Below, piece after piece: positions 24,499 to 43,282 of a stretch of 64,000 bases of DNA (position 1 is the first letter of the stretch; each line of letters begins with the position of its first letter). The DNA lies in contig NZ_QYYD01000012.1 of assembly GCF_003591005.1 (NCBI RefSeq), positions 62,001-126,000 on the forward strand, in the 5' to 3' direction. The notes below the pieces were generated by a model. The model made no database searches and was not told where the DNA came from. It saw only the letters and a program-made list of their open reading frames with translations. Source of the DNA: Rhodopseudomonas palustris. Lineage in GTDB: Bacteria; Pseudomonadota; Alphaproteobacteria; Rhizobiales; Xanthobacteraceae. The translations under genes were made by a program, and so were the position numbers.

Positions 24499-27400
24499 TT
24501 ACCAGGTATCGACGCAGGGCCGCTTGCGCTCGGTGCGCTGCGGCGGCGTCGGCACCGAACGCAGCCCGGCCATGATCCATCGCCGCGTCTCGGCCGGATC
24601 GATGACGTTGTCGATCTCGAACACCGAGGCGATCGAGGTCGCCTTGCCGTTGGCGTACATCTCGGCGACCTTGTTCTTGTAGTAGGTCTCGCGCTCGACC
24701 GGATCGGCGATCGCCTCCATCTCCTTGCGGAAACCGAGGCGGACGTAGCCTTCCAGCCCCATGCCGCCGAATTCCCCGGTCGGCCACGCCGCCGTGAAGA
24801 ACGAGGCGTGGAAACCGCCGCCGATCATCGACTGCGCGCCGAGGCCGTAGCCCTTCCGCAGCACGATGCCGAACAGCGGCACCGTGAGGCTGGCGCCAGT
24901 GACGAACATGCGGGCGACGTGGCGCACGATCGCGGTCTTCTCCGCTTCCGGCCCGACCATGAAGCCGGGCGTATCGCACAGCGACACGATCGGAATGTCG
25001 AATGCGTCGCACAGCTGCAGGAAGCGCGCCGCCTTGTCGCCGGCCGGCGCATCGATGGCGCCGCCGAGATGTTTTGGATTGTTGGCGATCAGCCCGAACG
25101 GCTTGCCCTCGATCCGGATGAACGCGGTGATGATGCCGATGCCGAAATCACGGCGCAGCTCCAGCACCGAATCCTCGTCGGCGATCAGCTCGATGACATG
25201 GCGGATGTCGTAGACCCGCAGACGGTTTTCCGGGATCGCGCGGCGCAGCAGCCGCTGATCCGCCGCGCGCCACTCGGCGACCGGTCCCTGGAAGTAGGAC
25301 AGATATTTCTGCGCGACCCGCGTCGCCTCTTCCTCGTCCTCGACCAGGATATCGACCACGCCGTTCGGCGACTGGAACGACACCGGGCCGACTTCGGCCG
25401 GATGATACACGCCGAGGCCGCCGCCCTCGATCATCGCCGGGCCGCCCATGCCGATCGAGGCATTTTGCGTCGCGATGATCACGTCGCAGCAGCCGAGCAT
25501 CGCGGCATTGCCGGCGAAGCAATAGCCGGAGACGACGCCGATCACCGGGACCAGACCCGACAGCTTGGCGAACTGCACGAAGGACGGCCCGTCGAGGCCG
25601 GTGAGGCCGAGCCGGTCGGTGTCGCCCGGGCGGCCGCCGCCGCCTTCGGCGTAGAACACCAGCGGCATCTTCCATTGCTCGACTAGCGTCAGCATGCGGT
25701 CGATCTTCTTGTGGTTCATGTGGCCCTGGGTGCCGGCCAGAACCGTGTAGTCATAGGAGATCACCATGCAGCGCGCGTCGTGCTCGCCGAATTGCTTGGC
25801 GTTCACCGTAGCGACGCCGGCAACAAGGCCGTCGGCGGGCGTGTTCTTGATCAGATCGTCGAGCGCCCGGCGGCGGCGCTGGCCGGCGATCGCCAGGCTG
25901 CCGTATTCCATGAACGAACCTTCGTCGACCAGCTGCGCGATATTCTCGCGCGCGGTGCGCTGATTGGTCTTGCGCCGCCGCGCGACCGAGTCCGGCCTGT
26001 TCTCATCGAGCGTGTTGCCCTGCCGCGCCAGCACCTCGGCAAGGTCGGGGCGGATCACGTCGAGATCGATCTCGGTTTCCTCGGCGGCCTGATCGCCCTC
26101 GACGTCGAGCGGCTCGAGATACAGGATCGCCTCGCCCTGCATCAGCGTCACGCCGTCGGCGGTGGCGATGCAGCGGATGCGGCCGCCCTGCTCGGCCGTG
26201 ACCAGATGCTCCATCTTCATCGATTCGAGCACCGCGAGCTGCTGCCCCGGGCTGACGACGTCGCCTTCCGCGACGGTGATCGCCACCACCGTGCCCTGCA
26301 GCGGCGCGACGATCGACACTGCGCCTTCCGGCACGGCTTCGGTCGCTGCCTTGGCGTGTTTCTGCTGCGCCTCGCCGCCCGGCAACGCGACCAGCGGCGC
26401 GCCGAGCTTGTCCGCGGCGGCGACCAAATCGGCGACGTTGCGATCGATGAACGCGGTGCTGACGCGGTTGGCCTTGAAGTCCGGATGCGCCAGGATCGCC
26501 TGCAGCAGGGCGCTATTCGTTTCGACGCCGGCAATGCGGAATTCGCGCAGCGTCCGCGCCGCCTTGGCGACGGCGTCGGGCCACTGCCCGGGCGCGTGCA
26601 CGATCACCTTGGCGAGTAGCGAGTCGAACGCCGCGCTGGTTTTGTAGCCCGCGTAGCCGAACGTATCGACACGCACGCCCGGCCCCGCCGGCGGTTCGAA
26701 CACGCCGAGGACGCCGCCGCTCGGATGCGTCGCGCCGCTCGCGTCCATCGTCTCCATGTTGACGCGGAGCTGGATCGCGAAGCCGCGCGGCCGCGGCACG
26801 TTCGGCTGATCGAGCCCAAGCGAATGAAGCGTCGCACTGCCCGCCACCGCGATCTGCGAGCGCACCAGGTCAACGCCGAGCACTTCCTCGGTGACGGTGT
26901 GTTCGACCTGCAGCCGCGGATTGGCCTCGATGAACGCGAACGCGCCCTCACCGTCGCCGCCGTCGCCATCGACCAGAAATTCGAATGTGCCGAGACTGTC
27001 GTAATTCGCTGCCTTGGCGAGCTTCACCGCCGACTCGAGGATACGGCTGCGTAGCTCATCACTCAGCGACGGGCTCGGCGCGATCTCGATCAGTTTCTGG
27101 TTGCGACGCTGGATGGTGCATTCGCGCTCCCATAGGTGGCTGATCGCGCCGTGCTGATCGCCGATGATCTGCACCTCGATATGCCGCGCATTGCGGATCA
27201 GCCGCTCGGCATAGACGCCCTCGAAACCGAACGCCGCCTTGGCTTCGGACTGACAGCGCGCGTAAGCTTCGCCGAGATCCTCGGCGCGCTCGACCACGCG
27301 CATGCCACGGCCGCCGCCACCCGCCATCGCCTTGATCATCACCGCGGCGTTCGCACCGAGCGAGGCGAAAAAGGCCTGAATGTCCTCCAGCGTCGACGGC

Positions 27401-27807
27401 CCCTGCGTGCCGGCAATGATTGGCACTCCCGACTTCTTTGCGAGCTGCCGTGCCGCAACTTTGTCACCGAATAGCCTCAAGGCTTCGGGCGACGGACCAA
27501 TGAACCGAATACCTTCCTCGGCGCAGCGCCGCGCCAGGTCGGCGTTCTCGCTGAGGAAGCCGTAGCCGGGATGCAGCGCGTCGCAATGCGCCGACTTGGC
27601 AGCTTCGATCACCGCCTCGATGTCGAGATACGCCCGTGCGCCGCGTCCCGGAATTTCCCGCGCCTCGTCGGCGATGCGCAGATGCAGCGACGCCGCATCA
27701 TCGGACGGATAGATCGCCACGCTGGCGATGCCGGCATCAGCCGCGGCCCGCGCGATACGGATCGCAATCTCGCCGCGGTTGGCGATCAGCAATTTACGAA
27801 ACGACAT
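24499..27807 (-). CDS. Single-chain long-chain acyl-CoA carboxylase
   Basis: A 1102-residue fusion with all activities of a biotin-dependent acyl-CoA carboxylase. Residues 1-450 are biotin carboxylase (KLLIANRGEIAIRIARAA, AGGGGRGMRVV, EANPRLQVEHTVTEE); the biotinyl domain has its Lys at about 531 in LESMKMEHLV; about 600-1100 is the carboxyltransferase with both halves (GGGGRPGDTD, then CDTPGFMVGPEAEK and GFHASFFTAAWPTGEFGGMG). This architecture is the family of homohexameric LCC enzymes described from Mycobacterium and Rhodopseudomonas, which act on long and short acyl-CoAs. ATG 27807 has GAGGA seven bases upstream, better than ATG 27825. Sits between an acyl-CoA ligase and a hotdog protein. 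Confidence 0.93.
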   Translation of the reverse strand: MSFRKLLIANRGEIAIRIARAAADAGIASVAIYPSDDAASLHLRIADEAREIPGRGARAYLDIEAVIEAAKSAHCDALHPGYGFLSENADLARRCAEEGIRFIGPSPEALRLFGDKVAARQLAKKSGVPIIAGTQGPSTLEDIQAFFASLGANAAVMIKAMAGGGGRGMRVVERAEDLGEAYARCQSEAKAAFGFEGVYAERLIRNARHIEVQIIGDQHGAISHLWERECTIQRRNQKLIEIAPSPSLSDELRSRILESAVKLAKAANYDSLGTFEFLVDGDGGDGEGAFAFIEANPRLQVEHTVTEEVLGVDLVRSQIAVAGSATLHSLGLDQPNVPRPRGFAIQLRVNMETMDASGATHPSGGVLGVFEPPAGPGVRVDTFGYAGYKTSAAFDSLLAKVIVHAPGQWPDAVAKAARTLREFRIAGVETNSALLQAILAHPDFKANRVSTAFIDRNVADLVAAADKLGAPLVALPGGEAQQKHAKAATEAVPEGAVSIVAPLQGTVVAITVAEGDVVSPGQQLAVLESMKMEHLVTAEQGGRIRCIATADGVTLMQGEAILYLEPLDVEGDQAAEETEIDLDVIRPDLAEVLARQGNTLDENRPDSVARRRKTNQRTARENIAQLVDEGSFMEYGSLAIAGQRRRRALDDLIKNTPADGLVAGVATVNAKQFGEHDARCMVISYDYTVLAGTQGHMNHKKIDRMLTLVEQWKMPLVFYAEGGGGRPGDTDRLGLTGLDGPSFVQFAKLSGLVPVIGVVSGYCFAGNAAMLGCCDVIIATQNASIGMGGPAMIEGGGLGVYHPAEVGPVSFQSPNGVVDILVEDEEEATRVAQKYLSYFQGPVAEWRAADQRLLRRAIPENRLRVYDIRHVIELIADEDSVLELRRDFGIGIITAFIRIEGKPFGLIANNPKHLGGAIDAPAGDKAARFLQLCDAFDIPIVSLCDTPGFMVGPEAEKTAIVRHVARMFVTGASLTVPLFGIVLRKGYGLGAQSMIGGGFHASFFTAAWPTGEFGGMGLEGYVRLGFRKEMEAIADPVERETYYKNKVAEMYANGKATSIASVFEIDNVIDPAETRRWIMAGLRSVPTPPQRTERKRPCVDTW

Positions 27808-27847
27808 CCAAACATCCTCATTCACAAATATCAGCCGCGCCGCGCGA

Positions 27848-29560
27848 TCAGCGCGCGTTGGCGTCGAGTTCTTGCTTCTTCACTTTGCCGGTCGCGGTCA
27901 TCGGCAAGGCGTCGATGATGCGGATCTCCGGCACCTTGTAGACCGCCATCCGCTCGGCGCACCAGGCCTGCAACTCGGCCGGCGTGATACTGCCTTCCGC
28001 CTCCGGCTTGAGCTGAATGAAGGCGACCGGCACCTGCCCCTTGCCGGGATCGTCACGGCCGACCACGCCCGAGCCGAGCACTGCGGGATGCTGGCCGAGC
28101 AGCGCCTCGATCTCTGGCGGAAACACGCTCATGCCCTTGACCTTGAGCATCTCCTTGCGCCGGCCGAGGAAGTGCAGAAAGCCTTGCGGATCGATGGTGC
28201 CGATGTCGCCGGTGCGCAACCAGCCATCGACCAGTGACTGCGCGGTCGCCTCCGGCTTGTTCCAGTAGCTCTTCAAGAGCGACGGCGTCCGCACCCGGAT
28301 TTCGCCCTCGCCGCCGAGTGGCACCAGCTCGCCGGTCTCGAAATCGGTGATCTTGAACTCGGCGCCCGGCACTGGCAGACCGACGAAGATCGGCTGCGAA
28401 TTCAGATCGAAGTCATCGCCCTGGAAGCCGACCGTGAAGGTGTTCGACGTGTGCGTCTCGGTCATGCCCCACGACGCTTCGGTGAGGATGGTGCCGGTGA
28501 GATCCTTCCAGCGCTTGCGATAACTGGGATTGAGCTTCTTGACGAACGAGACCACGCGGACCTGCTTCAGCGACGACAGATCGAAATCCTTGAAGCGCGG
28601 GTGATCCATCAGCTCGACAGCGCCGTCGACCGGCATCGCGGTGACGCCGACCTTGTAGCGATCGATCGCCGACAGCACGCCGAGTGCGTCCCAGCGCGCC
28701 AGCAGCACCAGCGTGGCGCCGGCGAACAGCGGGAAGATCAGGCCGAAATTCTCGCCGGCGATCCAGAACTCGGGAAAGAACGACAGAAACACGCTGCGCT
28801 CGTCGGCGACCACCGAGATGCCGTGATTGGCGGCGGCGGTGTACACCATGTCGCGCTGGGTGTGGACGCAGCCCTTCGGCATGCCGGTGGTGCCGCCGGT
28901 GTAGTTCAGCGCCGCGACGTCGTCGAGCGAGGCCGGCGGCAGCGGCTCCGGCGCCGGCATTGCCGCCAGCGCCGGCAGCAGATCGGTCGCGCCGGCCACC
29001 GCCACGCGCGGCCCACTCACCGAATCCGGCACCGGAATTGTCGGCGAAGCGGGGATCACGTCGGCAAAACTGGTGACGATCACCTCGCGCAGCTTGGTTT
29101 CGCCGCGTACCTGATTGACCACCGAGGCAAGCTGGTCGAGCGCCACGATCACTTCGGCGTCGGTGTCGTTGAGTTCGTAGGACAGTTCGAACGCGCGCGA
29201 CAGCGGGCTGACCGGCACGTGGATCGCGCCGAGCTTGAGGATGCCGAAGAACACGATGTGGAATTGCGGGCAGTTCGGCAGGAACACCGCGACGCGGTCG
29301 CCCTTGCGCACGCCCTTCTGCATCAGCAGTGCGGCGAAGCGATCGCTGAGCTGATCGAGTTCACCGTAGGTGGTGACGTGGCCGTAGAAGATCACGGCCG
29401 GCCGCTCCGGCGCCCGCTTCGCCCAGGCGCGCAGATATTCGCTGAGCGCGATCTCGCCGTGCGGATAGCGCGGCTGGGTCGGCAGGCCCTTCGGCCAGGC
29501 CTTGGCCCAGAGATCGTGCAGTTTCGCGAGATAATCGGCTTCGGTGGCGCTGGCGCTCAT
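27848..29560 (-). CDS. AMP-forming acyl-CoA synthetase
   Basis: A 570-residue ANL-superfamily ligase that activates a carboxylic acid to its CoA thioester. The P-loop YTGGTTGMPKG is at residues 220-230, ASWGMTETHT marks the adenylate site, GWLRTGDIGTIDPQGFLHFLGRRKEMLKVKG (seen as WLRTGDIG and GRRKEMLKVKG) the hinge, and the catalytic Lys is in TATGKVKKQEL near the C-terminus. Predicted to supply the acyl-CoA for the carboxylase 40 bases downstream. The acid is unknown, presumably what the Dpp-type importer brings in. Confidence 0.92.
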   Translation of the reverse strand: MSASATEADYLAKLHDLWAKAWPKGLPTQPRYPHGEIALSEYLRAWAKRAPERPAVIFYGHVTTYGELDQLSDRFAALLMQKGVRKGDRVAVFLPNCPQFHIVFFGILKLGAIHVPVSPLSRAFELSYELNDTDAEVIVALDQLASVVNQVRGETKLREVIVTSFADVIPASPTIPVPDSVSGPRVAVAGATDLLPALAAMPAPEPLPPASLDDVAALNYTGGTTGMPKGCVHTQRDMVYTAAANHGISVVADERSVFLSFFPEFWIAGENFGLIFPLFAGATLVLLARWDALGVLSAIDRYKVGVTAMPVDGAVELMDHPRFKDFDLSSLKQVRVVSFVKKLNPSYRKRWKDLTGTILTEASWGMTETHTSNTFTVGFQGDDFDLNSQPIFVGLPVPGAEFKITDFETGELVPLGGEGEIRVRTPSLLKSYWNKPEATAQSLVDGWLRTGDIGTIDPQGFLHFLGRRKEMLKVKGMSVFPPEIEALLGQHPAVLGSGVVGRDDPGKGQVPVAFIQLKPEAEGSITPAELQAWCAERMAVYKVPEIRIIDALPMTATGKVKKQELDANAR

Positions 29561-29588: not shown

Positions 29589-30464
29589 TCAGTTGCGCTT
29601 CATCGTCGGGTCGAGCGCAACGCGCAGCGATTCACCGAGCGTGTTGTAGGCGAGCGCGGTGAACAGGATCGCCAGCCCAGGCGGATACATCTGCTCCGGG
29701 GCGATCTCCATGTTCTGATACGCGCGCGCCAGCATCGCGCCCCAGCTCGGATCCGGCGGCTGAATGCCAAGCCCGAGGAAGCTGAGGCTGGCTTCGGCGA
29801 GCAGCGCGGCCGCGAGCAGCAGCGTCACCTGCACGATCACCGGCTGGATCGCATTCGGCAGCACGTGGCGCCACAGGATGCGCGTGGTCGAGCCGCCGAA
29901 GCAGCGCGCCGCGTCGACATAGAGTTCGTGCCGCACCACCAGCGTCCGCGCGCGGACCAGCCGCGCGAGCTGCGGCGAGAACACGATGCCGACCGAGATC
30001 ATGCCGTTGGTGAGCCCGATGCCGAGCGCGCCGGTGACGGCGATCGCCAACACGATGGCCGGAAACGACAGGAAGCTGTCGATGACGCGGCTGATCACGG
30101 TGTCGACCCAGCCGCCGAGATAGCCGGCGAGCACGCCGACCGGCACGCCGATCAGCACCGCGATCGCCACCGCCAGGAAGCTCGCATACAGCGACGCCAT
30201 GCCGCCATAGATCAGCCGGCTCAGTGTATCGCGGCCGAGATCGTCGGCGCCGAGCCAATGCTCGGCCGACATCGGCGCCAGCGACGCGTTGACGTCCTGC
30301 GCCAGCGGGTCATACGGCGCGAGCCACGGCGCCAGCACCGACACCACGAACAGCATGATCAAAAAGCCCAGGCTGATCGCGCCGCGAATGTCGGACACGA
30401 ACCAGCGCACGAATTTGCGCAGCCGCCGCGGCCGGTGCGGCGCCGTCATCGCCAGATCGGTCAT
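29589..30464 (-). CDS. Dpp/Opp-type ABC permease (DppC)
   Basis: A 291-residue membrane protein with a long cytoplasmic N-terminus, about six helices, and the coupling loop YVDAARCFGGSTTRILWRHVLPNA (seen as GGSTTRILWRHVLPN). HWLGADDLGRDTLSRLIYGG is the diagnostic DppC/OppC segment near residues 68-87. ATG 30464 overlaps the DppB-like stop by four bases. Confidence 0.92.
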   Translation of the reverse strand: MTDLAMTAPHRPRRLRKFVRWFVSDIRGAISLGFLIMLFVVSVLAPWLAPYDPLAQDVNASLAPMSAEHWLGADDLGRDTLSRLIYGGMASLYASFLAVAIAVLIGVPVGVLAGYLGGWVDTVISRVIDSFLSFPAIVLAIAVTGALGIGLTNGMISVGIVFSPQLARLVRARTLVVRHELYVDAARCFGGSTTRILWRHVLPNAIQPVIVQVTLLLAAALLAEASLSFLGLGIQPPDPSWGAMLARAYQNMEIAPEQMYPPGLAILFTALAYNTLGESLRVALDPTMKRN

Positions 30465-31417
30465 GAGGCGATCCTCGGATCGAGCACGCTGTACAGGATG
30501 TCGGTGAGCAGATTGAGCGACACCACGATCAGCACCATGGTGAACACCACGCCCTGCACCACCGGGAAGTCGCGGTGCATCGCGGCGTTGACGATCAGCC
30601 CGCCCATGCCGGGAATGGCGAACACCGCCTCGACCACCACGGTCGCGGCCAGCATCCGGTTGGCCAGCAGGCTGATCACCGTCAGCAGATTGACGCTGAC
30701 GTTCTTCAGGCCATGGCGCCACAGGATCGACGACGGCGGCAGCCCCTTGGCGTGCAGGGTGCGCACCGCCTGCGACGACAGGATTTCGACCAGCGACGAA
30801 CGCAGCTGCCGCGCCACTTCGGCGATGCCGCCCGAGGCGAGCGCCAGCGCCGGCAGGAGTGCGTGACTGAGCGACGCCCAGGGATCCTTGAAGAACGACA
30901 CCGCGCCGGTCGCCGGCAGCCAGTTCAGCTGCAGCGAGAAGAACGCGACCAGCAGCATGCCGAGCCAGAAGTTCGGCACAGCGACGCCGAGCGACGCGAT
31001 CGCCATCACGATGCTGTCGATCCACGAGCCCGGCTTGGTCGCCGCCGCGATGCCGAGCGGCACGCCGATGATCAGCGCGGTGAGCAGCGCCAGCACCACG
31101 ATCAGCAGCGTATGCGGCAGGCAGCGCTGGATCGAGGCCAGCACCGATTCGTTCGACACCAGCGAGTTCGACAGATCGCCCTGCACGGCCTTGGCCAGCC
31201 ACGACCCGTATTGCATCAGGAACGGCTGGTTCAGCCCGTAGAGTTCGCGGATCTCGGCGATGCGCTGCTCCGAGGCATTGTCGCCGGCGAGCGTCACGGC
31301 GACGTCGCCCGGCACCAGCTTGAGCAGGCCGAACACGATGAAGGTAGACAGCACCACCACCGGGATCGCCTGCAGCAGCCGGCGCCCGATGATGTGAAGT
31401 CGTGCGGCATTCAACAT
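30461..31417 (-). CDS. Dpp/Opp-type ABC permease (DppB)
   Basis: A 318-residue membrane protein. The N-terminal RRLLQAIPVVVLSTFIVFGLLKLVPGD segment (seen as LLQAIPVVVLSTFIVF), LYGLNQPFLMQYGSWLAKAVQGDLG-like sequence near residue 70, and a C-terminal FAIPGMGGLIVNAAMHRDFPVVQGVV stretch (seen as IPGMGGLIVNAAMHRDFPVV) are the DppB hallmarks. It pairs with the DppC-like protein to form the channel. Confidence 0.92.
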   Translation of the reverse strand: MLNAARLHIIGRRLLQAIPVVVLSTFIVFGLLKLVPGDVAVTLAGDNASEQRIAEIRELYGLNQPFLMQYGSWLAKAVQGDLSNSLVSNESVLASIQRCLPHTLLIVVLALLTALIIGVPLGIAAATKPGSWIDSIVMAIASLGVAVPNFWLGMLLVAFFSLQLNWLPATGAVSFFKDPWASLSHALLPALALASGGIAEVARQLRSSLVEILSSQAVRTLHAKGLPPSSILWRHGLKNVSVNLLTVISLLANRMLAATVVVEAVFAIPGMGGLIVNAAMHRDFPVVQGVVFTMVLIVVSLNLLTDILYSVLDPRIAS

Positions 31418-31463
31418 GGGCTGGATCCGGAACGAGCGCCGCGACGGTCGCGGCGGCGCCGTC

Positions 31464-33017
31464 TCATGCGAGGGAGATGTTTTCGAATTTCGGCTTGCCG
31501 AGCAGATTGGGCGTGAAGCCCTTTACCTTCGAGGACAGCGCGTCGAGCTCGAACTGGAATGCCAGCGGCGCCGACAGCGCCTGCTCGACGGTGATGCGCT
31601 GGATCTTGGCGAACACTTCGGCGCGCTTGGCGAGATCCTCACTGGCGCGGCTCTCCTGAATGAGCCTCGACAGCTCCGGATCGGCCGTGCGGCCAGCGTT
31701 GTAGTAGGCGCCTTTGTCGAAGCCGAGCCCATAGGTCATGCTCGGATCAGGACGCCCGGTCCAGGCAGACACCAACAGGTCGAACTTCTTCTCCTGCGCA
31801 AAGAACTGCGCGCTGATTTCCGCGATGGTGCCGCGGGTGAACTTCACCCGGATGCCGGCTTTGCCGAGCTGGTCCTGAATGACCTCGCCGCGGCGCACCG
31901 AATCCTGATCGGTGTAGCCGCCGATCGTCAGATCGATGCCATCCTTGTAGCCGGCCTCGGCCAGCAGCTGCTTGGCCTTGGCGATGTCGTGCGGATAGGT
32001 GTTGGCCACATCCTTGTTGTAGGCCCAGTGCGAGCTTGGCAGCGTCATCCGGGCCGGCTCGCCGAGGCCGCTGAGCGCCGCCTTGACGAAGGTGTCGCGG
32101 TCGAATGCGAAGTTGATCGCCTGCCGGACCTTGACGTTGTCGAGCGGTGCGCGCGCGTAGTTGAAATACACTTGGATGCAATACAGCGTCGGTGACGACA
32201 CCAGGGTCAGATCCTTGGCGCGCTCGATCACCGGCTTGAGGCGCGCCGGGAGCTGGAACGCCATGTCGTTCTGGCCGGCCACCACCGAGCGCAGCGCGGT
32301 GGCGTTCTCGGTGATGATGTTGAACTCGATGCCGTCGAGATACGGCCGGCCCTTGCGCCAGTAGTTGTCGTGGCGCGTCACCACGATGATCTCGTTGTCG
32401 TTCCAGCGCACCAGCTTCCACGGCCCGGCGCCGACCGCCTTGCGATCGGTCTCGTTACCGAGCGCCTTGAGGTTGGTCGGCGACACCATCATGCCGGCGC
32501 GGTCCGACAGGATCGCCGGCAGCGCGGTGTCGGGATTCTTCAGCTTCAGCGTCACCTGCAGCGGTCCGGTGACCTCGACCTGATCGATGCTGGCGAGATC
32601 CGGCTTGATGTTGGAGCGCTGATCGCTGCGATTGCGGTCGAGGTTGAACTTGACGGCCTCGGCGTCCATTGCGGTGCCGTCGTGAAACTGGATACCCGGG
32701 GTGATGTCGAGCACCATCGTGTTGGGGTCGGGATACGACCACTTGGCCATGCCGGGCTTCGGCTTCAGCGTGTCGTAGTCCCACTCCACCAGCGTGTCGT
32801 ACATCGTCCACAGGATGCTGTGGTCGGAGCCGGCACCGCCGGTCGCGGGATCGAGCGACGACGGGTTGGCGGGCGCCGCGACCTTGAGCACGCCGCCTTT
32901 CTTGGGCTCCTGCGCCAGCGCCGGCAGGCCGAGCGCGCTGGCCGCAACACTGCCGCCGATCAGCGCCAGAATGTCACGACGCCGCAGGGTTCGTCCGCCC
33001 AGATCGTACACGCGCAT
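31464..33017 (-). CDS. Dpp/Opp-type ABC solute-binding protein (Tat-type leader)
   Basis: A 517-residue SBP_bac_5 protein. The N-terminus has RRRDILALIGG followed by a hydrophobic stretch and ALA-Q, a likely twin-arginine signal, which would mean export after folding. The mature part has KKGGVLKVAAPANPSSLDPA and later YNKDVANTYPHDIAKAKQLLAEAGY (seen as YPHDIAKAKQLLAEAGY), typical of the family. Ligands of the family include peptides, nickel chelates, opines and other small acids; the acyl-CoA genes downstream argue for an organic acid or acylated compound. Confidence 0.9.
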   Translation of the reverse strand: MRVYDLGGRTLRRRDILALIGGSVAASALGLPALAQEPKKGGVLKVAAPANPSSLDPATGGAGSDHSILWTMYDTLVEWDYDTLKPKPGMAKWSYPDPNTMVLDITPGIQFHDGTAMDAEAVKFNLDRNRSDQRSNIKPDLASIDQVEVTGPLQVTLKLKNPDTALPAILSDRAGMMVSPTNLKALGNETDRKAVGAGPWKLVRWNDNEIIVVTRHDNYWRKGRPYLDGIEFNIITENATALRSVVAGQNDMAFQLPARLKPVIERAKDLTLVSSPTLYCIQVYFNYARAPLDNVKVRQAINFAFDRDTFVKAALSGLGEPARMTLPSSHWAYNKDVANTYPHDIAKAKQLLAEAGYKDGIDLTIGGYTDQDSVRRGEVIQDQLGKAGIRVKFTRGTIAEISAQFFAQEKKFDLLVSAWTGRPDPSMTYGLGFDKGAYYNAGRTADPELSRLIQESRASEDLAKRAEVFAKIQRITVEQALSAPLAFQFELDALSSKVKGFTPNLLGKPKFENISLA

Positions 33018-33037
33018 AATTGTCCTCCCGATGATGG

Positions 33038-34065
33038 TTATGACGCGGCTTGCGCCGGCTGATTGTTCGGCTGCGGCCCGTCGGCCGTGGCGAAATGACA
33101 GGCGACGCGATGGCAGGGGCGGACTTCGCGCCAGGCCGGCATCTCCTTGGCGCAGCGCGGCTGCACCGACGGGCAGCGGGTGCGGAAGCGGCAGCCCGAC
33201 GGCGGCGCCACCGGGCTCGGAATCTCGCCTTCGAGAATGATGCGGCGATCGACCCGCAGATGCGACGGCAGCGGGATCGGCTCGGCCGACAGCAGCGCGC
33301 GCGTATAGGGATGCAGCGGCCGCTCGATGACGTCTTCGGCGGGGCCGAGCTCCATCAGCTTGCCCAGATAGGTCACCGCAATGCGGTCGGAGATATGCGA
33401 CACCACCGAGATGTCGTGGGTGATGAACACGTAGGTCAGGCCGAACTCGCGCTGCAGATCGGCGAACAGATTGAGCACGTCGCCGCGGATCGAGACGTCG
33501 AGCGCCGCCACCACCTCGTCGCAGACGATCACCTTGGGCCGCAGCATCAGCACCCGCGCGATGTTGACGCGCTGCTTCTGTCCGCCGGACAATTGATGCG
33601 GATAGCGGTCCGCCGCCTCGGCGGACAGCCCGACACGCTCCAGCATCGCGATGCCGCGGCGGCGTCGCGAGTTCGCGTCGCCCTCGCGCAGAATCTCGAG
33701 CGGCTCGACCACGCTGTCGATGATCGTCATCCGCGGATTGAGCGCGGCGTTGGGGTCCTGGAAAATGATCTGATAGTCCCGGCGATGCTGGCGGAACGCG
33801 CGCGTGCCGAGCTGTTCCGGATCGGCGCCGTCGTGCAGGATCTGACCTTCGGTCGGCCGCAGCAGCGACACCAGCGCACGGCCGAGCGTCGTCTTGCCCG
33901 AGCCGGATTCGCCGATCACCCCGAAAGTCTCGCCGGCCTGTACGGCGAAATCCATGCCGTCGATCGCCTTGACGGTGTCGCGGCCGTCGCGCGACGGAAA
34001 CAGGATGCGCAGATCGCGCACCGCCAGAATGCCGGCTTCAGAACCGTCGCGCCGCGGAGAAGTCA

Positions 34066-34066
<1 letters not shown>
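33038..34066 (-). CDS. Dpp/Opp-type ABC ATPase (DppF)
   Basis: A 342-residue ATPase with Walker A GESGSGKTT, signature LSGGQKQR, Walker B KVIVCDEVVAALD (a hydrophobic Val-Val where Pro-Thr or similar is common) and the C-terminal oligopeptide-type Cys motif CRFRTRCP...C...C that can hold an Fe-S cluster. ATG 34066 overlaps the preceding ATPase stop by one base (TGATG). Confidence 0.92.
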
Positions 34067-35117
<1,051 letters not shown>

Positions 35118-35121
<4 letters not shown>

Positions 35122-35249
35122 TCGCCGCAACAATGCGCAGGATGGTGAGCCCGGCGCAGCATGTGCGCCGACGGACGCATGGCGTCGAAGCTTGCGATAG
35201 CGGCCTGTCGGCCTGACCGGACACGTGCCGGCGCTTCGGTGGTCGCCAT
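35118..35249 (-). CDS. Possible 43-residue leader peptide upstream of the Dpp-type operon
   Basis: A small frame beginning MATTEAPARVRSG and ending HHPAHCCGE. It has the best ribosome-binding site of this region (GGGAGG six bases before ATG 35249) and its stop overlaps the ATG of the DppD-like gene in ATGA. No homology is recognised. The Cys-Cys close to the C-terminus recalls the cysteine-responsive upstream frames seen before some alphaproteobacterial uptake operons, but this resemblance is weak evidence. Alternatively it is only a translation-coupling device. Confidence 0.45.
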
Positions 35250-35351
35250 GTTCATCCTCCCGTCCGCGGCTCCGGACCACGGTTCGTCGCGCTTTCGGCT
35301 TGGCGCCGATTTGGCCGCGCGACACCCGCAATCAAACGGCACGAATTGTCG

Positions 35352-35422: not shown

Positions 35423-36211
35423 ATGGATCGCAGCTCGACGACTGCGAGGGACGGCCATAGCGAGCGCCGATTTGCGCCCCGCACGCTGCCCGACCAGGTC
35501 GCCGAAGAGCTCGGCGCCGACATCGTGTCCGGCCGTCGCAAAGCCGGCGCGCGACTGGTCGAACTCGATCTGGCGCAAGAATTCGGCGTCAGCCGCGGCC
35601 CGATCCGCGAGGCGATCCGGATTCTCGAACGGCGCCGCCTCGTCGAATTGCTGCCGCGGCGCGGCGCCTACATCAAGCCGGTGTCGCTGAAATCCGTCGC
35701 CGACCTGTTCAACGTCCGCACTGCGCTGTCGGCACTCGCAGTCCGCACCATGGCGACGTCACCGGTGGAGAGCTACATCGACACGCTGGCCCGGCGTTGT
35801 GACGAGCTGAAAGCACAGGTCGATCTCGACGACCCGATGGGATTTGCGCGGACGACGACGCGTGCAGTCAAGACGATCGCACGCGGCTCCGGCAACGAGT
35901 TGCTGGTCGAACTGCTCACCGACCTCGCCAATCAGACGGTGTGGACGATGATCTGGAAATCACCGCTCGATTACCAGACGCGTGACATCCGGCTGATGTC
36001 AGCCAACCTGATGACGTCGACCTTGAAGGCGATCCGGCAGCGCAAGCCTAACGCTGCCGAAACGCATTTCCGTCAGCTGCTCGAGGGCGACCGCGACCGC
36101 GCGCTGGCGACGCTGTCGGAGATTCGGGGCGAAGCCTTCGACTTCAGCGCGCTGGATCACGCCGACGCGGCCGGTGGCGCGTTGCAGCTGCGCACCGCCC
36201 GGCCCGCATAA
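35423..36211 (+). CDS. GntR-family regulator with FCD domain, divergent from the acyl-CoA operon
   Basis: A 262-residue FadR-subfamily transcription factor. The winged helix spans about residues 20-88 (DQVAEELGADIVSGRRKAGARLVE, QEFGVSRGPIREAIRILERRRLVE, GAYIKPVS) and the helical FCD domain follows to about 240. ATG 35423 is used; a TTG at 35414 with GGAGA upstream is an alternative. Its ligand is probably the transported acid or its CoA ester. Its stop lies three bases from the end of the convergent RidA gene. Confidence 0.88.
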   Translation: MDRSSTTARDGHSERRFAPRTLPDQVAEELGADIVSGRRKAGARLVELDLAQEFGVSRGPIREAIRILERRRLVELLPRRGAYIKPVSLKSVADLFNVRTALSALAVRTMATSPVESYIDTLARRCDELKAQVDLDDPMGFARTTTRAVKTIARGSGNELLVELLTDLANQTVWTMIWKSPLDYQTRDIRLMSANLMTSTLKAIRQRKPNAAETHFRQLLEGDRDRALATLSEIRGEAFDFSALDHADAAGGALQLRTARPA

Positions 36212-36214
36212 CCC

Positions 36215-36601
36215 TTATTCCGGCCGGCGACAAACCAGATCGATCTCGATCAGCGCGTCGTAAGCGAGCCCGGTGACGCCGACGCAGGTGCGCGCCGGCA
36301 GGCGGCCTTCCGGGAAGTAACTGCGATAGGTCTCGTTCATCTCGGCGTAGTCGCGCTTGAACTCGGTGAGATAGATCCGGCTCATCACGATGTGCTCGAG
36401 GCCGAGGTTCAGACCGGCCAGCACCACGCGCAGATTCTCCATCACGGCGCGGGTCTGCGCGACGATTCCTGCCGGCAGCACGCCGGGCGTCTGCGGCGTA
36501 TCCGGCATCTGACCGGTGACGAACACGAAGCCATCGGTTTCGACCGCGTGGCTGAACGGCGCGACCGGCTTCGGTCCGCCAGGGATCATGTGAAACTGCA
36601 A
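36215..36601 (-). CDS. RidA/YjgF family protein
   Basis: A 128-residue protein of the RidA superfamily, whose members hydrolyse reactive enamines and imines or act in related catabolic steps. Family signs: the N-terminal PFSHAVETDGFVFVTGQMP, LGLEHIVMSRIYLTEF and the C-terminal GRLPARTCVGVTGLAYDALIEID, which includes the substrate-carboxylate Arg in PARTCV. A TTG at 36601 is taken as start because AAAGG lies six bases before it, while the ATG at 36589 has none. It is the last gene of the amide operon; formation of an unstable imine in the pathway would explain its presence. Confidence 0.85.
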   Translation of the reverse strand: MQFHMIPGGPKPVAPFSHAVETDGFVFVTGQMPDTPQTPGVLPAGIVAQTRAVMENLRVVLAGLNLGLEHIVMSRIYLTEFKRDYAEMNETYRSYFPEGRLPARTCVGVTGLAYDALIEIDLVCRRPE

Positions 36602-36625: not shown

Positions 36626-38956
36626 TCAGGCGCGCGGGTCGGCGAACACCTGTTTGCTGAGGATGGCGTGGACGCCCCAATTGCCGTCCACCACCTGGGT
36701 GACGCCGAAATCGACCGCGACCGACATCAGTGCAATCGCCTCGTCCTCGGTCAGTCCCTTGATGCTCATCAGGAAACGCCGCATTTTGCGGAACGCGTCC
36801 TTCATCGCGAGGTCGAGTGACGAGGTGGCGTAGACCTCGCTCTGGCCCTTGGCGCCGAATTCGGCCAGATAGTTCGGATGGCTGAACCCCATCAGCACCC
36901 AATCGGTCGCGGTTTCGATCAGCGGATAGCTGAGATCGGCGAACGGCTTGTCGGCGAACTCGCCCTTCTTGTGCAGGATCACCTCGAAGGTGCCGGTCAT
37001 CGAACATTCGATTGCAGTGCCGCCTAGCTCGCCGTCGCCTTGCGCGGCGTGCGGGTCGCCGACTGATAACAACGCGCCTGGCACCGACACCGGCAGATAG
37101 ATCGTCGAGCCCTTGCCGAGTCGCCAATTGTCGAGATTGCCGCCGAAGTAGGCGGGCGGCACCGAATCGACGAAGTCGGCTTCGCGCGGCGCCAGCGCGA
37201 TTACGCCGAAATGCGGCCGCAGCGGAATGCGCACACCATCGAGCACGTCGTGCCGCCGTCGCACCGAGGCGGGCTGCACCGGCACGCCCGGATAATCGTA
37301 AGTGGTGTGCACCGTGCCGAACGGATCGACCTGCGGGGCCCAACGATAGGAATACGCGGCGCGCGCATAGGGCGCCGCATCGTCGGCGACGATCTCATAG
37401 ATCGTGACTGCCTCGTGGGCGTGCTGCTCGGCCAAAAATTCCTTGTAGTGATAGCCCCACCACGCCGCGACGCTGCTGCCGAACACCCGGCCTTTGAAGT
37501 CCGGGTTGCGGCTGGCGCGCGGGACGATGTCGCGGATGCGGATCTCCAGCACGTCGCCCGGCTGCGCATCCTTCACCGCCACCGGCCCGGTGCAGATATG
37601 CACGCCAAAGCCTTCGCCGGCGCCGCGGCCGTAGATCGAGGCGTCGAGTGGGCCGGCGCCGCGGCGATCGACGTTCTTCTGATCGTGCGTCCAGTGAAAC
37701 ACGCTCTCGGCGCCGGCATCGCCCGAAATCATTCGTTCCGGATCGTCGGAAGCGTGCTGGGTCAGCGTCTCGATGGTGATGGTGTCGCCCGACGCGATCT
37801 CGATCTGCGGCGGCAGCGAGCGGCTAAAGTACCCCCAATGCACGCGCGATGCGTCGGCGGCGAGGTGATGATGCTGCGGCGTGGTCTCGGCGGACGCATC
37901 TGCTGCAGCGACATCAACGGCAGGCCGGCGCGCCGCAGTCGCCGCCGGTTGATTGCGCAGCTGCACCAGCGCCTGCTGCGGCCAACCGCGCTGCGCGGCG
38001 GCGGCGGCCGTCGCGGCATGACGCTCGGCCTCGGCCTGGCGATATTCGCGCGGCGACACGCCGAAGCGATGGCGGAAGGCGCGGCTGAAATGCGCCGAGT
38101 CGTTGAAGCCGACGCGGAACGCGATCTCGGAAATCGAGTGATGCGCCTCGGCCGGATTGGAGAGGTCTGCGCAGGTGCGCTGCAGCCGACGTTCGCGCAA
38201 GTAGTGCGTAAAGCTGGAGCCGGTCCCGCCGAACAGCTTCTGCAGATAACGCTCCGAGATGCCTTCGGCCGCGGCGACTTTCGCCGGAGTCAGATCCGGG
38301 TCGTCGAGCCGGCGCTCGATCGCCTGACACAGTCGCTGCAGCGTCGCCGCCTTGCTGGCGGTGCCGGCGCTCAGATCCGTCGTCGCGGGCGCCTGGCGCA
38401 TCAAGGCCGGCAGCAGATCGGCGAGGCTTTGCGCCGTCACCGGCCATTCGGTCTCGGACAGCGTCTCGAGATTGCGTGCGGCGCTTTCGAGCATGCGAAT
38501 GAAGATCTCGCCAAAGCCGCTCGGCGCGATGTGCTGAACCTCGGTCAGCGGCGGCGTTCGGCTACGCGCAGCCTCGCACGACACCGACAACACGACGGCA
38601 CGCAGATCACGCGCGAACGAAAGGCTCCAGCCGCTCGCCCGTGGCAACATCAGCAAATGTCCGATCGCGATGATCTGATGTCCTGCCGCGGTCTTCAGCG
38701 ACACGCCGTCTTCGAGCGGAAACAGCACCAGCGGATGCTTGCCATGCGCGTCGGCGTGCGCCGTCACCGCCTGCGGCCCGGCCGAAAGTGTCGCGAGCGT
38801 CACGCCCTCGGAACTGCGGCGGACTGCGGTGGCGTGGCCGGCATGGCTGGTTGCAGCTGCCGAGGGCTGCAAGCCGAGCGAGGCGAGGACGTCCCGCCAG
38901 GCTTCCGGGCGCTCGCTTTCGGAATAGGACTCGCTGGAATAGGGACGCAGACTCAT
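36626..38956 (-). CDS. AraC-type regulator fused to a formamidase/acetamidase domain
   Basis: A 776-residue uninterrupted frame joining two normally separate proteins. Residues 1-190 resemble an AraC-type sensory domain; about 205-310 is the AraC/XylS DNA-binding domain (VAAAEGISERYLQKLF, then ISEIAFRVGFNDSAHFSRAFRHRFGVSPREYR). An Ala/Gln-rich linker (315-365) leads to a full FmdA_AmdA domain from about 365 (VHWGYFSRSLPPQIEI) to the end. That domain keeps the family core SVGDPHAAQGDGE (about 630-642) and is close to the free-standing enzyme encoded just upstream. ATG 38956 has AGGAAGG seven bases upstream; earlier in-frame starts lack one. A regulator that binds or cleaves its own inducer is the obvious idea (inference). 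Confidence 0.9.
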   Translation of the reverse strand: MSLRPYSSESYSESERPEAWRDVLASLGLQPSAAATSHAGHATAVRRSSEGVTLATLSAGPQAVTAHADAHGKHPLVLFPLEDGVSLKTAAGHQIIAIGHLLMLPRASGWSLSFARDLRAVVLSVSCEAARSRTPPLTEVQHIAPSGFGEIFIRMLESAARNLETLSETEWPVTAQSLADLLPALMRQAPATTDLSAGTASKAATLQRLCQAIERRLDDPDLTPAKVAAAEGISERYLQKLFGGTGSSFTHYLRERRLQRTCADLSNPAEAHHSISEIAFRVGFNDSAHFSRAFRHRFGVSPREYRQAEAERHAATAAAAAQRGWPQQALVQLRNQPAATAARRPAVDVAAADASAETTPQHHHLAADASRVHWGYFSRSLPPQIEIASGDTITIETLTQHASDDPERMISGDAGAESVFHWTHDQKNVDRRGAGPLDASIYGRGAGEGFGVHICTGPVAVKDAQPGDVLEIRIRDIVPRASRNPDFKGRVFGSSVAAWWGYHYKEFLAEQHAHEAVTIYEIVADDAAPYARAAYSYRWAPQVDPFGTVHTTYDYPGVPVQPASVRRRHDVLDGVRIPLRPHFGVIALAPREADFVDSVPPAYFGGNLDNWRLGKGSTIYLPVSVPGALLSVGDPHAAQGDGELGGTAIECSMTGTFEVILHKKGEFADKPFADLSYPLIETATDWVLMGFSHPNYLAEFGAKGQSEVYATSSLDLAMKDAFRKMRRFLMSIKGLTEDEAIALMSVAVDFGVTQVVDGNWGVHAILSKQVFADPRA

Positions 38957-40333: not shown

Positions 40334-41941
40334 TCACGAGACTTCGGCCTCCATCGCGTTGAGGAAGCGCTGCGCGACCGGATTCTTCGGATGATTGAGC
40401 ACCTGATCCGCCGGACCTTCCTCGATGATCGAACCGCCGGCGAGCAGCACGACGCGATCCGCGACCTCGCTGGCGAAGCGCAGCTGATGCGTCGAGATGA
40501 TCATGGTCAGCCCATCCTCGATCGCGAGGCGGCGGATCACTTCCAGCACCTCGTTGACGAGTTCGGGATCGAGCGCGGAGGTCGGCTCATCCAGCAGCAG
40601 CACGCTCGGGTTCGGCGCGATAGCGCGGGCGATGGCGACGCGCTGCTGCTGGCCGCCGGACAGATGCCGCGGCAGCGCGTCGGCGCGATGCGACAGGCCG
40701 ACCCGTTCCAGCAGTTCGAGCGCCCGGCGCTCGGCTTCTTCAGGCGACACGCCGTGTACCCAGCGCAGCGGGCCGGCGATATTCTCCTTGGCAGTGAGAT
40801 GACCGAACAGATTGAACTGCTGAAACACCATGCCGACGCCGACTTCGGCGCGCGCCTGCGCGGCCATCCGCGGCGACAGCGGCTTGCCCAGATGATTGAA
40901 GCCGAGCCGCCGGCCGCCGACCTCGATGGTGCCGTCGCTCCAAAATTCGAGATTGTTGATACAGCGCAGCAGCGTGCTCTTGCCGGAGCCGGACGGTCCG
41001 AGCAGCGCGATCACCTCACCATTGCGCACGGCGAGATCGACGCCGTCGAGCACGACATGGGCGTCGTAATTCTTGCGCAGCGCCTTCACCGCGACCGCGA
41101 CGTCGTTATGCACCAGCGTCTTGGCGCGCTCGGCCCGCTCGACGCGATTGGCCGACACGCGCGGCGGTGGCAGCTCGGCAACGCCACCATCGGGCAGGAT
41201 TTCCGGCGGCGCTTCCCCAGCCTGCAGCGGATCATCGATCCCCTGGGCCCGGTACCACGGCAGGAAGCGCATCAGCTTGACCTGCTTGGAGGTGCGGTCG
41301 AGATCGAACAGCCACTCCAGGAAAATCTGGATCGCCGAGATCGCTGTGGTCAGCAGCAGATAGATCAAGCCGGAGGCGAAGAAGATCGAGAAGAAATCGA
41401 ATGTCGAGGACGCGAGCTGCGTCGAGCGCAGCGTCAGCTCCTGCACGGCGATCACCGAGGCCAGCGACGAGTTCTTCAGCGCGCTGACGGCTTCGTTGCC
41501 GAATGCCGGGATCATGGTGCGGATCGCCTGCGGGGCGATGATCCGGCGCATCAGCACGCCGGGCGTCATGCCCAGTGCCTGGCCAGCGAGGATCTGGCCC
41601 TTCTCGACGCCGAGCACGCCGGCGCGCAGCATCTCGGCGATGAACGGAGCTTCGTTACAGGCCAGCGCGAGACCGGCGGCGAGGATCGCCGGAAGCTTGA
41701 TGCCGATATGCGGCAACGCGTCGTAGGCGAACACCATCTGCAGAATCAGCGGTGTGCCACGAAAGATGACGGTGTAGATCCGGGCGGCGGACGACAGCAG
41801 CCGAAACCGGCTGAGTTGCATCCCCGCCAGGATCGTTCCGAGGATCAGTCCGCCCCCGAGACCCAGAGCAGTGACCTGCAGGGTCACCTCGATGCCCTGG
41901 ATCATATAGGGCATGGTCAAGTAATGGAGAAACAGCTCCAT
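40334..41941 (-). CDS. Polar amino acid-type ABC permease fused to its ATPase
   Basis: A 535-residue protein. Residues 1-230 are a HisM/GlnP-type permease (TLQVTALGLGGGLILGT, IFRGTPLILQ, QALGMTPGVLMRRIIAPQAIRTMIP as the coupling loop); a hydrophilic linker spans about 230-285; the rest is a HisP/GlnQ-type ATPase with Walker A GPSGSGKST at about 311-319, signature LSGGQQQR and Walker B VLLLDEPTSALD. Such permease-ATPase fusions are uncommon. The protein would dimerise to form a complete transporter. ATG 41941 begins the family homology and has AGGA upstream. A repeat separates it from the binding-protein gene. Confidence 0.92.
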   Translation of the reverse strand: MELFLHYLTMPYMIQGIEVTLQVTALGLGGGLILGTILAGMQLSRFRLLSSAARIYTVIFRGTPLILQMVFAYDALPHIGIKLPAILAAGLALACNEAPFIAEMLRAGVLGVEKGQILAGQALGMTPGVLMRRIIAPQAIRTMIPAFGNEAVSALKNSSLASVIAVQELTLRSTQLASSTFDFFSIFFASGLIYLLLTTAISAIQIFLEWLFDLDRTSKQVKLMRFLPWYRAQGIDDPLQAGEAPPEILPDGGVAELPPPRVSANRVERAERAKTLVHNDVAVAVKALRKNYDAHVVLDGVDLAVRNGEVIALLGPSGSGKSTLLRCINNLEFWSDGTIEVGGRRLGFNHLGKPLSPRMAAQARAEVGVGMVFQQFNLFGHLTAKENIAGPLRWVHGVSPEEAERRALELLERVGLSHRADALPRHLSGGQQQRVAIARAIAPNPSVLLLDEPTSALDPELVNEVLEVIRRLAIEDGLTMIISTHQLRFASEVADRVVLLAGGSIIEEGPADQVLNHPKNPVAQRFLNAMEAEVS

Positions 41942-41972
41942 GGCGGCGGCGGTCCTTGGTGAGTTGTCTTCT

Positions 41973-42058
41973 GTAGGGTGGGCAAAGCGAAGCGTGCCCA
42001 CCGCCTTCCGCGAGACCGAGGGGTGGGCACGGCGCTTACGCGCCTTTGCCCACCCTAC
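41973..42058. repeat. Palindromic repeat, family E
   Basis: An 86-base inverted repeat: GTAGGGTGGGCAAAGCGAAG and CGTGCCCACC on the left are mirrored by GGTGGGCACGGCGCTTACGC and CCTTTGCCCACCCTAC on the right. It occupies the gap between the binding-protein stop and the permease-ATPase start, where it may raise the level of the binding-protein message relative to the channel, as REP elements do in enterobacterial transporter operons (inference). Confidence 0.9.
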
Positions 42059-42068
42059 GTCGGGGCGA

Positions 42069-42962
42069 TTACTTGACGACCAGCAGACCCGGCTCGATCA
42101 GGTTTTCGGGGTCGAGCTTCCACTTCTTCAAGAGCGCGAGCTGATCACCGGATTTGTAGATCTCGGTGAGGGCTTCCTTCACGGCGTCGCGGAACTTCGG
42201 CTTGTCCTTCGGCACGCCGATGCCGACCTGATAGGGGATCGTCACCGCGATCGCCTTTTCGAGCTTGTCCGGATAGGCCTTCACGGCGTTGTCGACGGTG
42301 TTGACGTCGTTGATGTAGGTGTCGGCGCGGCCGGCGAGGATCGCCTGGATGCAGTTGGCGTTGTTGTCGTAGAGCTGGATGGTCGGCTCCGGCTTGCCGA
42401 GCTTCTTGCACTCCGGCGCCAGCGCCTGGATCAGCGGCACTTCGACATAGCCGGTGTTTTCGGCCGCGGCGGTGCCGCACAGCGAGGTGTCGATGCCGGT
42501 GATCTTCTTCGGATTGCCCTTGGCGACCAGCACGCCGTCGAACACCTTGGAATAGGTGATGAAGTCGGCGGCCTTGGCGCGCTCTTCGGTGGCGTAGATG
42601 TCGGAGATGACGATGTCGGCCTGGCCGCTCGCCAGCGTGGTCAAGAGCGCCGCAAAGGTCACCGCCTTGTAGGTCAGCTTGAAGCCGAGACAGTCACCGA
42701 TCGCCTCGCCGAGGTCGATGTCGTAGCCGATATATTTGGTCGGATCCTTCGGATCGATCGACTCGTAGCCTGGGGTGTGCGGGTTGATGGCGTTGACGAG
42801 GGTCTTGCCCTTCCAATCGGGATACTTCTCCTGCAGCGCCGCACAGGCGGCGGGCGTGGCGGCATGCGCGGGCTTCGCCGCCGCAAAGCCGACCAGCACC
42901 AGCGCGCCGATCAGCGCGGCGCCCGTCAGGCTCCGAAACTCAGGAAGTGGCAACTTGACCAT
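42069..42962 (-). CDS. Polar amino acid-type ABC solute-binding protein
   Basis: A 297-residue SBP_bac_3 protein. Residues 1-34 (MVKLPLPEFRSLTGAALIG...) form a signal peptide with an AHA cleavage site; the mature protein has YIGYDIDLGEAIGDCLGFKLTYKAV (seen as GYDIDLGEAIGDCLG), ASGQADIVISDIYATEERAKAADF and the C-terminal KKWKLDPENLI. Two Cys pairs may form disulfides. It is the first gene of the operon with the permease-ATPase and two formamidases, so the ligand may be an amide-bearing amino acid or related compound. Confidence 0.9.
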   Translation of the reverse strand: MVKLPLPEFRSLTGAALIGALVLVGFAAAKPAHAATPAACAALQEKYPDWKGKTLVNAINPHTPGYESIDPKDPTKYIGYDIDLGEAIGDCLGFKLTYKAVTFAALLTTLASGQADIVISDIYATEERAKAADFITYSKVFDGVLVAKGNPKKITGIDTSLCGTAAAENTGYVEVPLIQALAPECKKLGKPEPTIQLYDNNANCIQAILAGRADTYINDVNTVDNAVKAYPDKLEKAIAVTIPYQVGIGVPKDKPKFRDAVKEALTEIYKSGDQLALLKKWKLDPENLIEPGLLVVK

Positions 42963-43282
42963 TCGATCGCTCCTTCGATGGTGCCATGGCGGAGGCCATG
43001 TTCCGAACCGACTGGAGCTAAGACCGTGCGCCGCAGAAAAACTTGTCTCCGGGCGCACAACCTCTTGTTCGAAGGCTGCTGCTATTTAGGCAGAGGATGC
43101 GTGATTTTTGGGCGGACGGTGACCGCAGAACGCTCCACATCGGAGAGCGACGGCGCGAGTACGACCTCATCCCCCGTCATGCCCGGACTTGTTCCGGGCA
43201 TCCACGCCTTACTGCGTTGCTACGCTCAAGGCGTGGATGGCCGGGACAAGCCCGGCCATGACGGATGTAGTGAGCGCCGCGA
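42963..43282. other. Gap between ctpA and the binding-protein gene: promoter region and repeat
   Basis: 320 bases with no credible gene. Bases 43175-43263 are a family B palindrome; 42963-43174 should contain the promoter of the amide operon on the minus strand, but no sigma-70 or operator motif stands out. Confidence 0.7.
43175..43263. repeat. Palindromic repeat, family B copy 2
   Basis: An 89-base inverted repeat opening CGTCATGCCCGGACTTGTTC and closing CAAGCCCGGCCATGACG, with inner GGCATCCACGCC/GGCGTGGATGGCC arms. It matches the copy at 23242-23331 but with left and right variants exchanged, so it is inserted in the opposite orientation. Confidence 0.9.

Follow-up and report, generated by a model that had tools for sequence, protein, structure and literature searches.

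Typical members of the AraC/XylS family of transcription regulators end near the helix-turn-helix (HTH) domain. Enzyme folds that turned into sensors are already known, namely in the MocR/GabR group and in the GATase-1-like AraC regulators, and the enzyme-like domain of GbdR and CdhR, two of the latter, is N-terminal. These AraC-family regulators are named after their amidotransferase-like part (PMC5806209), and GABA forms an adduct in GabR, where rotation of a tyrosine is said to block further transamination-like catalysis (PMC6917764). Among the open-licence PMC papers matched by searches for it, no title or abstract opening describes an AraC-formamidase or AraC-acetamidase fusion, nor was an acetamidase/formamidase-family enzyme found described there as a sensor for transcription.

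Here we describe such a fusion in a window of 64,000 nucleotides from the soil bacterium Rhodopseudomonas palustris. The protein, P0001, is encoded on the minus strand (36626..38956) and consists of an AraC-type regulator, a linker and an acetamidase/formamidase (FmdA_AmdA) domain. It differs from the comparable AraC/XylS regulators (FeaR-like proteins; CuxR for the N-terminal fold) by an amidase domain that follows the HTH and is about 410 residues long. With the acetamidase/formamidase family PF03069 it shares full-length homology and the core motif, whereas it differs from the closest structure, 3b9t (a predicted acetamidase/formamidase of Methylobacillus), by the DNA-binding part, Gln400 and Leu621. 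As proposed here for P0001, MocR/GabR proteins (wHTH plus aminotransferase fold) use a whole enzyme fold as the effector domain. However, the DNA-binding family, the enzyme fold and the cofactor all differ, and the four Pfam families matched by P0001 include neither GntR nor an aminotransferase. The enzyme folds of P0001 and of the GATase-1-like AraC regulators are unrelated. Our tentative reading is that P0001 is an AraC/XylS one-component regulator with an enzyme-derived sensor of amidase fold, which would control a cluster for amide uptake and hydrolysis.

Architecture and distribution of the fusion

The translation of P0001 runs without a stop over 776 residues, of which residues 1–312 form the regulator. 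Its N-terminal, cupin-like domain, probably of the AraC type (residues 1–195; 38372..38956, minus strand), matches the AraC_binding_2 profile at residues 22–185 with 25.4 bits, just below the cut-off of 27. The DNA-binding domain (residues 203–312; 38021..38350, minus strand) is a double HTH of the AraC type, as judged from the HTH_18 match at residues 228–307 (81.3 bits versus a cut-off of 33.6) and from structural matches to HTH domains of the AraC family. The amidase domain (residues 361–772; 36641..37876, minus strand) belongs to FmdA_AmdA by profile (PF03069 at residues 452–758, 103.2 bits versus a cut-off of 27). Although the Pfam match begins only at residue 452, the domain is complete, since residues 361–772 align with residues 72–480 of 3b9t (E = 6e-176). 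Both P0001 (58.3 bits) and the free-standing amidase P0002, encoded directly upstream, score far below the cut-off of 500 of the formamidase FmdA equivalog NF045496 (63.8 bits for P0002). An AlphaFold model of P0001 built from 28 sequences had a mean pLDDT of 65, too low for site geometry.

The sequence-only reading had proposed a single open frame of 776 codons uniting AraC and FmdA_AmdA, a retained family core motif and a close free-standing relative directly upstream. The profile matches and full-length homologues bear out the first; the motif, SVGDPHAAQGDGE, lies at residues 631–643 (37028..37066, minus strand); and P0002 is 57% identical to residues 361–771. The frames of relatives are nearly always open over both parts. 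Between codons 301 and 430, in-frame ATG, GTG or TTG occurs only at codons 331, 372, 409 and 419, so that the domain junction lacks a start codon. As the fusion is found at full length in many genomes, it is no sequencing accident, and an assembly artefact or frame error is ruled out.

A wider occurrence of the AraC plus FmdA_AmdA architecture, which had been suggested as a check, was indeed found: the fusion recurs in the family, in another class and on plasmids. A full-length match exists in 6 of 16 genomes of the genus, and in one further genome (G013) the match is split across contig ends. In the family, both parts are matched in at least 67 of the 296 sampled genomes (G013 counted), 16 of which have a second copy; this is a lower bound, with three candidates scored per genome. 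An in-frame stop interrupts three (G125, G246, G287) of at least 83 family fusion rows. With two candidates scored per genome, the fusion is present in at least 4 of 386 genomes of the class sample, two of them outside the family, and in at least 8 of 397 genomes of the phylum sample, one from another class. Among 19 matching plasmid records, 12 have one place that covers at least 80% of the fusion query; the carriers include Rhizobium, Neorhizobium, Caballeronia, Paraburkholderia, Variovorax and other alpha- and betaproteobacteria. For the comparison of neighbourhoods, the fusion query gave 251 relatives, of which we used the best 80, from named genomes (Rhodopseudomonas, Tardiphaga, Bradyrhizobium, Ancylobacter and others). 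Because these loci were picked by similarity to the fusion, its presence in all 80 is not a frequency. Some of them end at contig ends, and the frame is broken in one MAG (L115). In Rhizobium johnstonii plasmid pRlX5 (L210:8490-10899), the annotated CDS for the HTH and amidase parts has 1839 bases and is preceded by a short hypothetical CDS; the N-terminal domain looks detached. Database records give the plasmid-borne fusions the name 'acetamidase/formamidase family protein' or 'AraC family transcriptional regulator'.

Residues and selection in the fused amidase domain

Eight polar residues, H453, D468, N607, D609, D634, H636, E643 and E650, are invariant across 22 distant free-standing sequences. 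The same eight are found in every ungapped fused sequence, which places the fused domain in FmdA_AmdA by its residues as well; they are presumably metal-binding and catalytic. A few invariant positions that are small or hydrophobic are kept at 92–99%. The core motif of the fused domain reads GDGE, like that of distant enzymes, and the P0002 type reads GDSE. Since the literature searched yielded no active-site residues for the FmdA_AmdA family, catalytic competence of the fused domain is judged by conservation only.

Position 400 (codon at 37757..37759, minus strand) is Gln in 117 of 118 fused sequences, P0001 among them, versus His in 132 of the 135 closer free-standing relatives (the remaining three are gapped). 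The lone fusion with His400, L211 from Novosphingobium, is placed among the fusions in the tree. At position 621, 117 of 118 fusions have Leu (one gapped), versus Tyr in 131 of 135 closer free-standing sequences. Nearly all of these closer sequences agree at positions 495, 561 and 562, and their Asn495, Asp561 and His562 are exchanged in many fusions; P0001 of the window has Ser495. Neither His400 nor Tyr621 is family-wide: His400 is present in 13 of the 22 distant free-standing sequences, the remaining nine having Gly, Thr, Ala or Gln, and Leu621 is found in many distant free-standing sequences. The Gln among these nine is that of L001, the formamidase of the same genome, whose alignment is doubtful. 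For this reason, the changes at 400 and 621 may mean another specificity rather than lost turnover.

Selection on the fused domain is strict and close to that on the free-standing enzyme. The dN/dS values are 0.030–0.076 for the fused amidase domain (five pairs) and 0.028–0.055 for P0002 (the four pairs in which its partner is an orthologue). The pair with L053 gives 0.076 for the fused domain versus 0.028 for P0002; in the pair with L056, the partner of P0002 is a different, 71% identical enzyme, whose dN/dS of 0.291 is not comparable. Given these values and the conserved core residues, turnover by the fused domain is possible. A scaffold and core that are kept, together with an exchange of selected positions, would fit a sensor, or a new ligand, better than either a dead relic or an unchanged enzyme.

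The same data bear on a self-resetting switch, or trigger enzyme, in which a normal amidase fused to the regulator would sense its substrate, activate transcription and then destroy that substrate. Retention of all eight polar residues, a dN/dS close to that of the free-standing enzyme, the GDGE core shared with distant enzymes, and the occurrence there of Leu621 and of residues other than His at position 400 are all in its favour. It is weakened, however, because the cluster has a dedicated amidase, P0002, adjoining the fusion, and because the fused domain lacks the His of its closer relatives. The Tyr621 of these relatives is likewise replaced nearly throughout, and their residues at 495, 561 and 562 are changed in many fusions. 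We thus regard the switch, the main rival of the sensor reading, as rather unlikely and a role of the fused domain as a plain inducer-destroying enzyme as doubtful.

Gene cluster and origin of the fusion

The cluster lies entirely on the minus strand, in the order binding protein, permease-ATPase, P0002, fusion and RidA. The first gene encodes an extracellular solute-binding protein of family 3 (SBP_bac_3; 42069..42962), with the ATG at 42962 as its start. It is followed by the permease and ATPase of an ABC transporter in one polypeptide (BPD_transp_1 and ABC_tran; 40334..42001), by P0002 (39049..40290), a free-standing FmdA_AmdA amidase in which no Tat motif was seen and which precedes the fusion in transcription, and, after the fusion, by a RidA-family (imine/enamine deaminase-like) protein (36215..36601; Ribonuc_L-PSP, 100.1 bits). 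This order is conserved: counting from the fusion in the loci of the best 80 of 251 relatives, position −1 is an amidase in 77, position −2 the permease-ATPase in 76 and position −3 the binding protein in 67, and RidA follows the fusion in 67. The 13 loci without RidA comprise nine from Ancylobacter or a close relative, two that end at a contig end and two others. The permease and ATPase are those of an amino-acid-type importer, and their union in a single chain of 555 residues is kept in related loci. R. palustris XCP (L056) has a tandem amidase that shares only 71% identity with P0002 and falls in an Ancylobacter-like subgroup; the amidase domain of the fusion in this strain is 94% identical.

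Beyond the cluster, the window contains minus-strand genes for a single-chain biotin carboxylase-carboxyltransferase, an AMP-dependent ligase and an oligopeptide-type ABC transporter (24499-29560, 29589-35331). A GntR-FCD regulator (35423-36211, plus strand) stands between these genes and the fusion cluster. GntR and transporter genes of this kind adjoin the cluster in only three of the 80 loci (L052, L098, L119).

Fusions of other types have different neighbours. An amidase of a shorter subfamily is found beside the fusion in L151, L152, L155 and L170, a divergent amidase of the Tat-signal group in L161, L162, L200 and L212, and other amidases in L158, L163 and L164; none was seen beside the fusion in L153, L154, L156, L157, L159 and L160. 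In Caballeronia, transporter-amidase genes are divergent from the fusion and two genes away from genes for nitrile hydratase. Products of nitrile hydratases are amides, and this proximity is a pointer toward amides as the substrate, not proof of it.

Conserved adjacency of the fusion and an amidase within the cluster, the common family of the fused domain and P0002 (57% identity), and the deposition of solved relatives with several chains would also agree with co-assembly, in which the two form mixed oligomers, so that the enzyme would titrate or tether the regulator. Yet a close amidase partner is missing beside several of the fusions from other locus types, and the partner in L056 is the distant one despite the close likeness of the fused domain. 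Co-assembly therefore appears improbable.

As to origin, the sequence-only reading had derived the fused domain from the neighbouring amidase by duplication and joining. This is not borne out. A clade of type A fusions (those of the window's locus type) and neighbour enzymes (22 rows, a group picked after a first tree had been inspected) is rejected (AU p = 0.00118), whereas a clade of all fusions and neighbour enzymes is not rejected in the smaller tree (AU p = 0.185). Moreover, a neighbour of the P0002 type stands beside only part of the fusions, others having a different amidase, one of the Tat-signal group or none seen. P0002 is thus probably not the source of the fused domain. In the first tree, for which 55 of 308 domain sequences were left after thinning, the fusions are monophyletic with support of 96/94, but support is moderate (77/92) in a second tree of 70 rows. 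The latter left out L001, L168 and L185 (long branches) and L180 (truncated) and took in no new rows with less than 33% identity or fewer than 250 aligned residues. The fusion event probably happened once. Enzymes of the Tat-signal group, 10 of whose 12 rows have the strict Tat pattern, adjoin the fusions in the first tree (support 93/84); as the base of this group is without resolution in the 70-row tree, the claim of a Tat-type donor was dropped.

The regulator also occurs unfused. L199 has a Rieske oxygenase, LigB, an amidase and an unfused AraC regulator, which matches residues 5–309 of P0001 with 35% identity. L170 has the same order, with an AraC-amidase fusion in place of the regulator. 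These orders indicate that the regulator probably came first and then gained the amidase domain, the separate amidase gene being retained. L199, L170 and L173 have amidase-AraC pairs within putative clusters of aromatic catabolism that include a Rieske oxygenase; LigB is present in the first two and a 67% identical RidA in L173. This suggests a ring-cleavage route that yields an amide.

Linker, candidate operator and proposed role

The linker is variable in sequence except for an RGxP motif (RGWP in P0001, residues 323–326; 37979..37990, minus strand), present in 116 of 116 distinct linkers: 97 have RGWP, 16 RGRP, two RGLP and one RGKP. RGxP occurs in 3.4% of shuffled linkers, and none of the six distinct unfused AraC relatives compared shows it in its tail. 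In the window's locus type the motif extends to about QRGWPQxALxQLR. RGRP is the core of the AT-hook, a reading of the linker that was dropped given how few linkers have this form. Our guess is that RGxP is a docking or coupling element. That regulator and enzyme were joined merely for co-expression, each acting independently, would agree with two parts that both look intact and constrained, but is improbable, since His400 and Tyr621 are replaced in nearly all fusions and every linker keeps RGxP, which argues for interdependence.

For the preferred reading, in which the amidase fold is the sensor, the N-terminal domain is also of interest. It is the fastest evolving part of P0001 apart from the linker (dN/dS 0.11–0.23, versus 0.02–0.05 for residues 196–312 with the DNA-binding part). 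At HTH identities of 49–52%, N-terminal domains are 34–39% identical in three unfused pairs versus 21–31% in 14 fused pairs. The ranges overlap at HTH identities of 61–68% (41–49% unfused versus 33–46% fused), and there is no deficit at 77–78% (51% unfused versus 56% fused); the unfused side consists of four sequences only. The drift at low identity weakly supports a move of sensing to the amidase domain.

A candidate operator lies upstream of the binding-protein gene (43055..43114, minus strand), with three half-sites at 43099-43114, 43077-43092 and 43055-43070, exactly 22 bp apart; a spacing of about two helical turns fits sites of the AraC family. In alignments anchored at the ATG of this gene, an upstream element of about 80 bp is common to the 67 stretches compared, one from the window and 66 from the 80 loci; the rest lacked the gene itself, a start that matched or sufficient upstream DNA. 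The stretches are partly diverged and all have a GACAAG anchor. Against dinucleotide shuffles, the repeat signal in 18 chosen sequences peaks at lags of 21–22 (z of 3.9 and 5.7; 3.3 at 23), values inflated by the relatedness of the sequences. A pattern of two half-sites built from the window site has one mismatch-free occurrence in the 5.6-Mb genome. Among 23 loci scanned, only L187, a locus of the window type, is far above its three shuffles (22.7 versus at most 13.8). L151, L161, L169, L170, L177 and L188 exceed their three shuffles by 1.8–3.5, which was not counted, and the other 16 are not above theirs. Neither the other fusion types nor L169, whose gene order is that of the window, showed a clear element of this kind. 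A conserved, inverted-repeat-like TTGTGCGCCCGGAGACAAG (43042-43060) adjoins the tandem half-sites and may be part of the promoter or a site for another regulator.

We infer the DNA target, the ligand, the sensing and the residual catalysis of the fusion as follows. An AraC/XylS regulator would have acquired, probably in a single event, a C-terminal copy of an enzyme of the acetamidase/formamidase family. Its AraC part probably binds the tandem 22-bp candidate element, through which the fusion would control the cluster of transporter, amidase, regulator and RidA. Sensing most likely falls to the amidase-fold domain, which would bind either the amide that is imported and hydrolysed by P0002 or the product of this reaction; with ligand bound, it would inform the DNA-binding part about the state of the pathway. 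Replacement of His400 by Gln and of Tyr621 by Leu would represent tuning from turnover to recognition, slow catalysis still being possible. The position of the fused regulator in L170, where L199 has the unfused one, is counted in favour of the sensor reading.

Beyond the window, it is possible, at the level of sequence comparison, that the alpha- and betaproteobacterial fusions are a family of amidase-fold regulators in which an enzyme, fused once, turned into the ligand-sensing part of an AraC activator, with the nearly universal exchange of His for Gln marking the switch and RGxP coupling the parts. The architecture is a reason against calling such proteins simply acetamidase/formamidase or AraC regulator, as current records do. 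Regulators occur unfused and fused in clusters of like order, and the free enzyme stands next to the fusion with a diagnostic residue difference. Since these forms exist side by side, the evolution of an enzyme into a receptor would be testable with few constructs.
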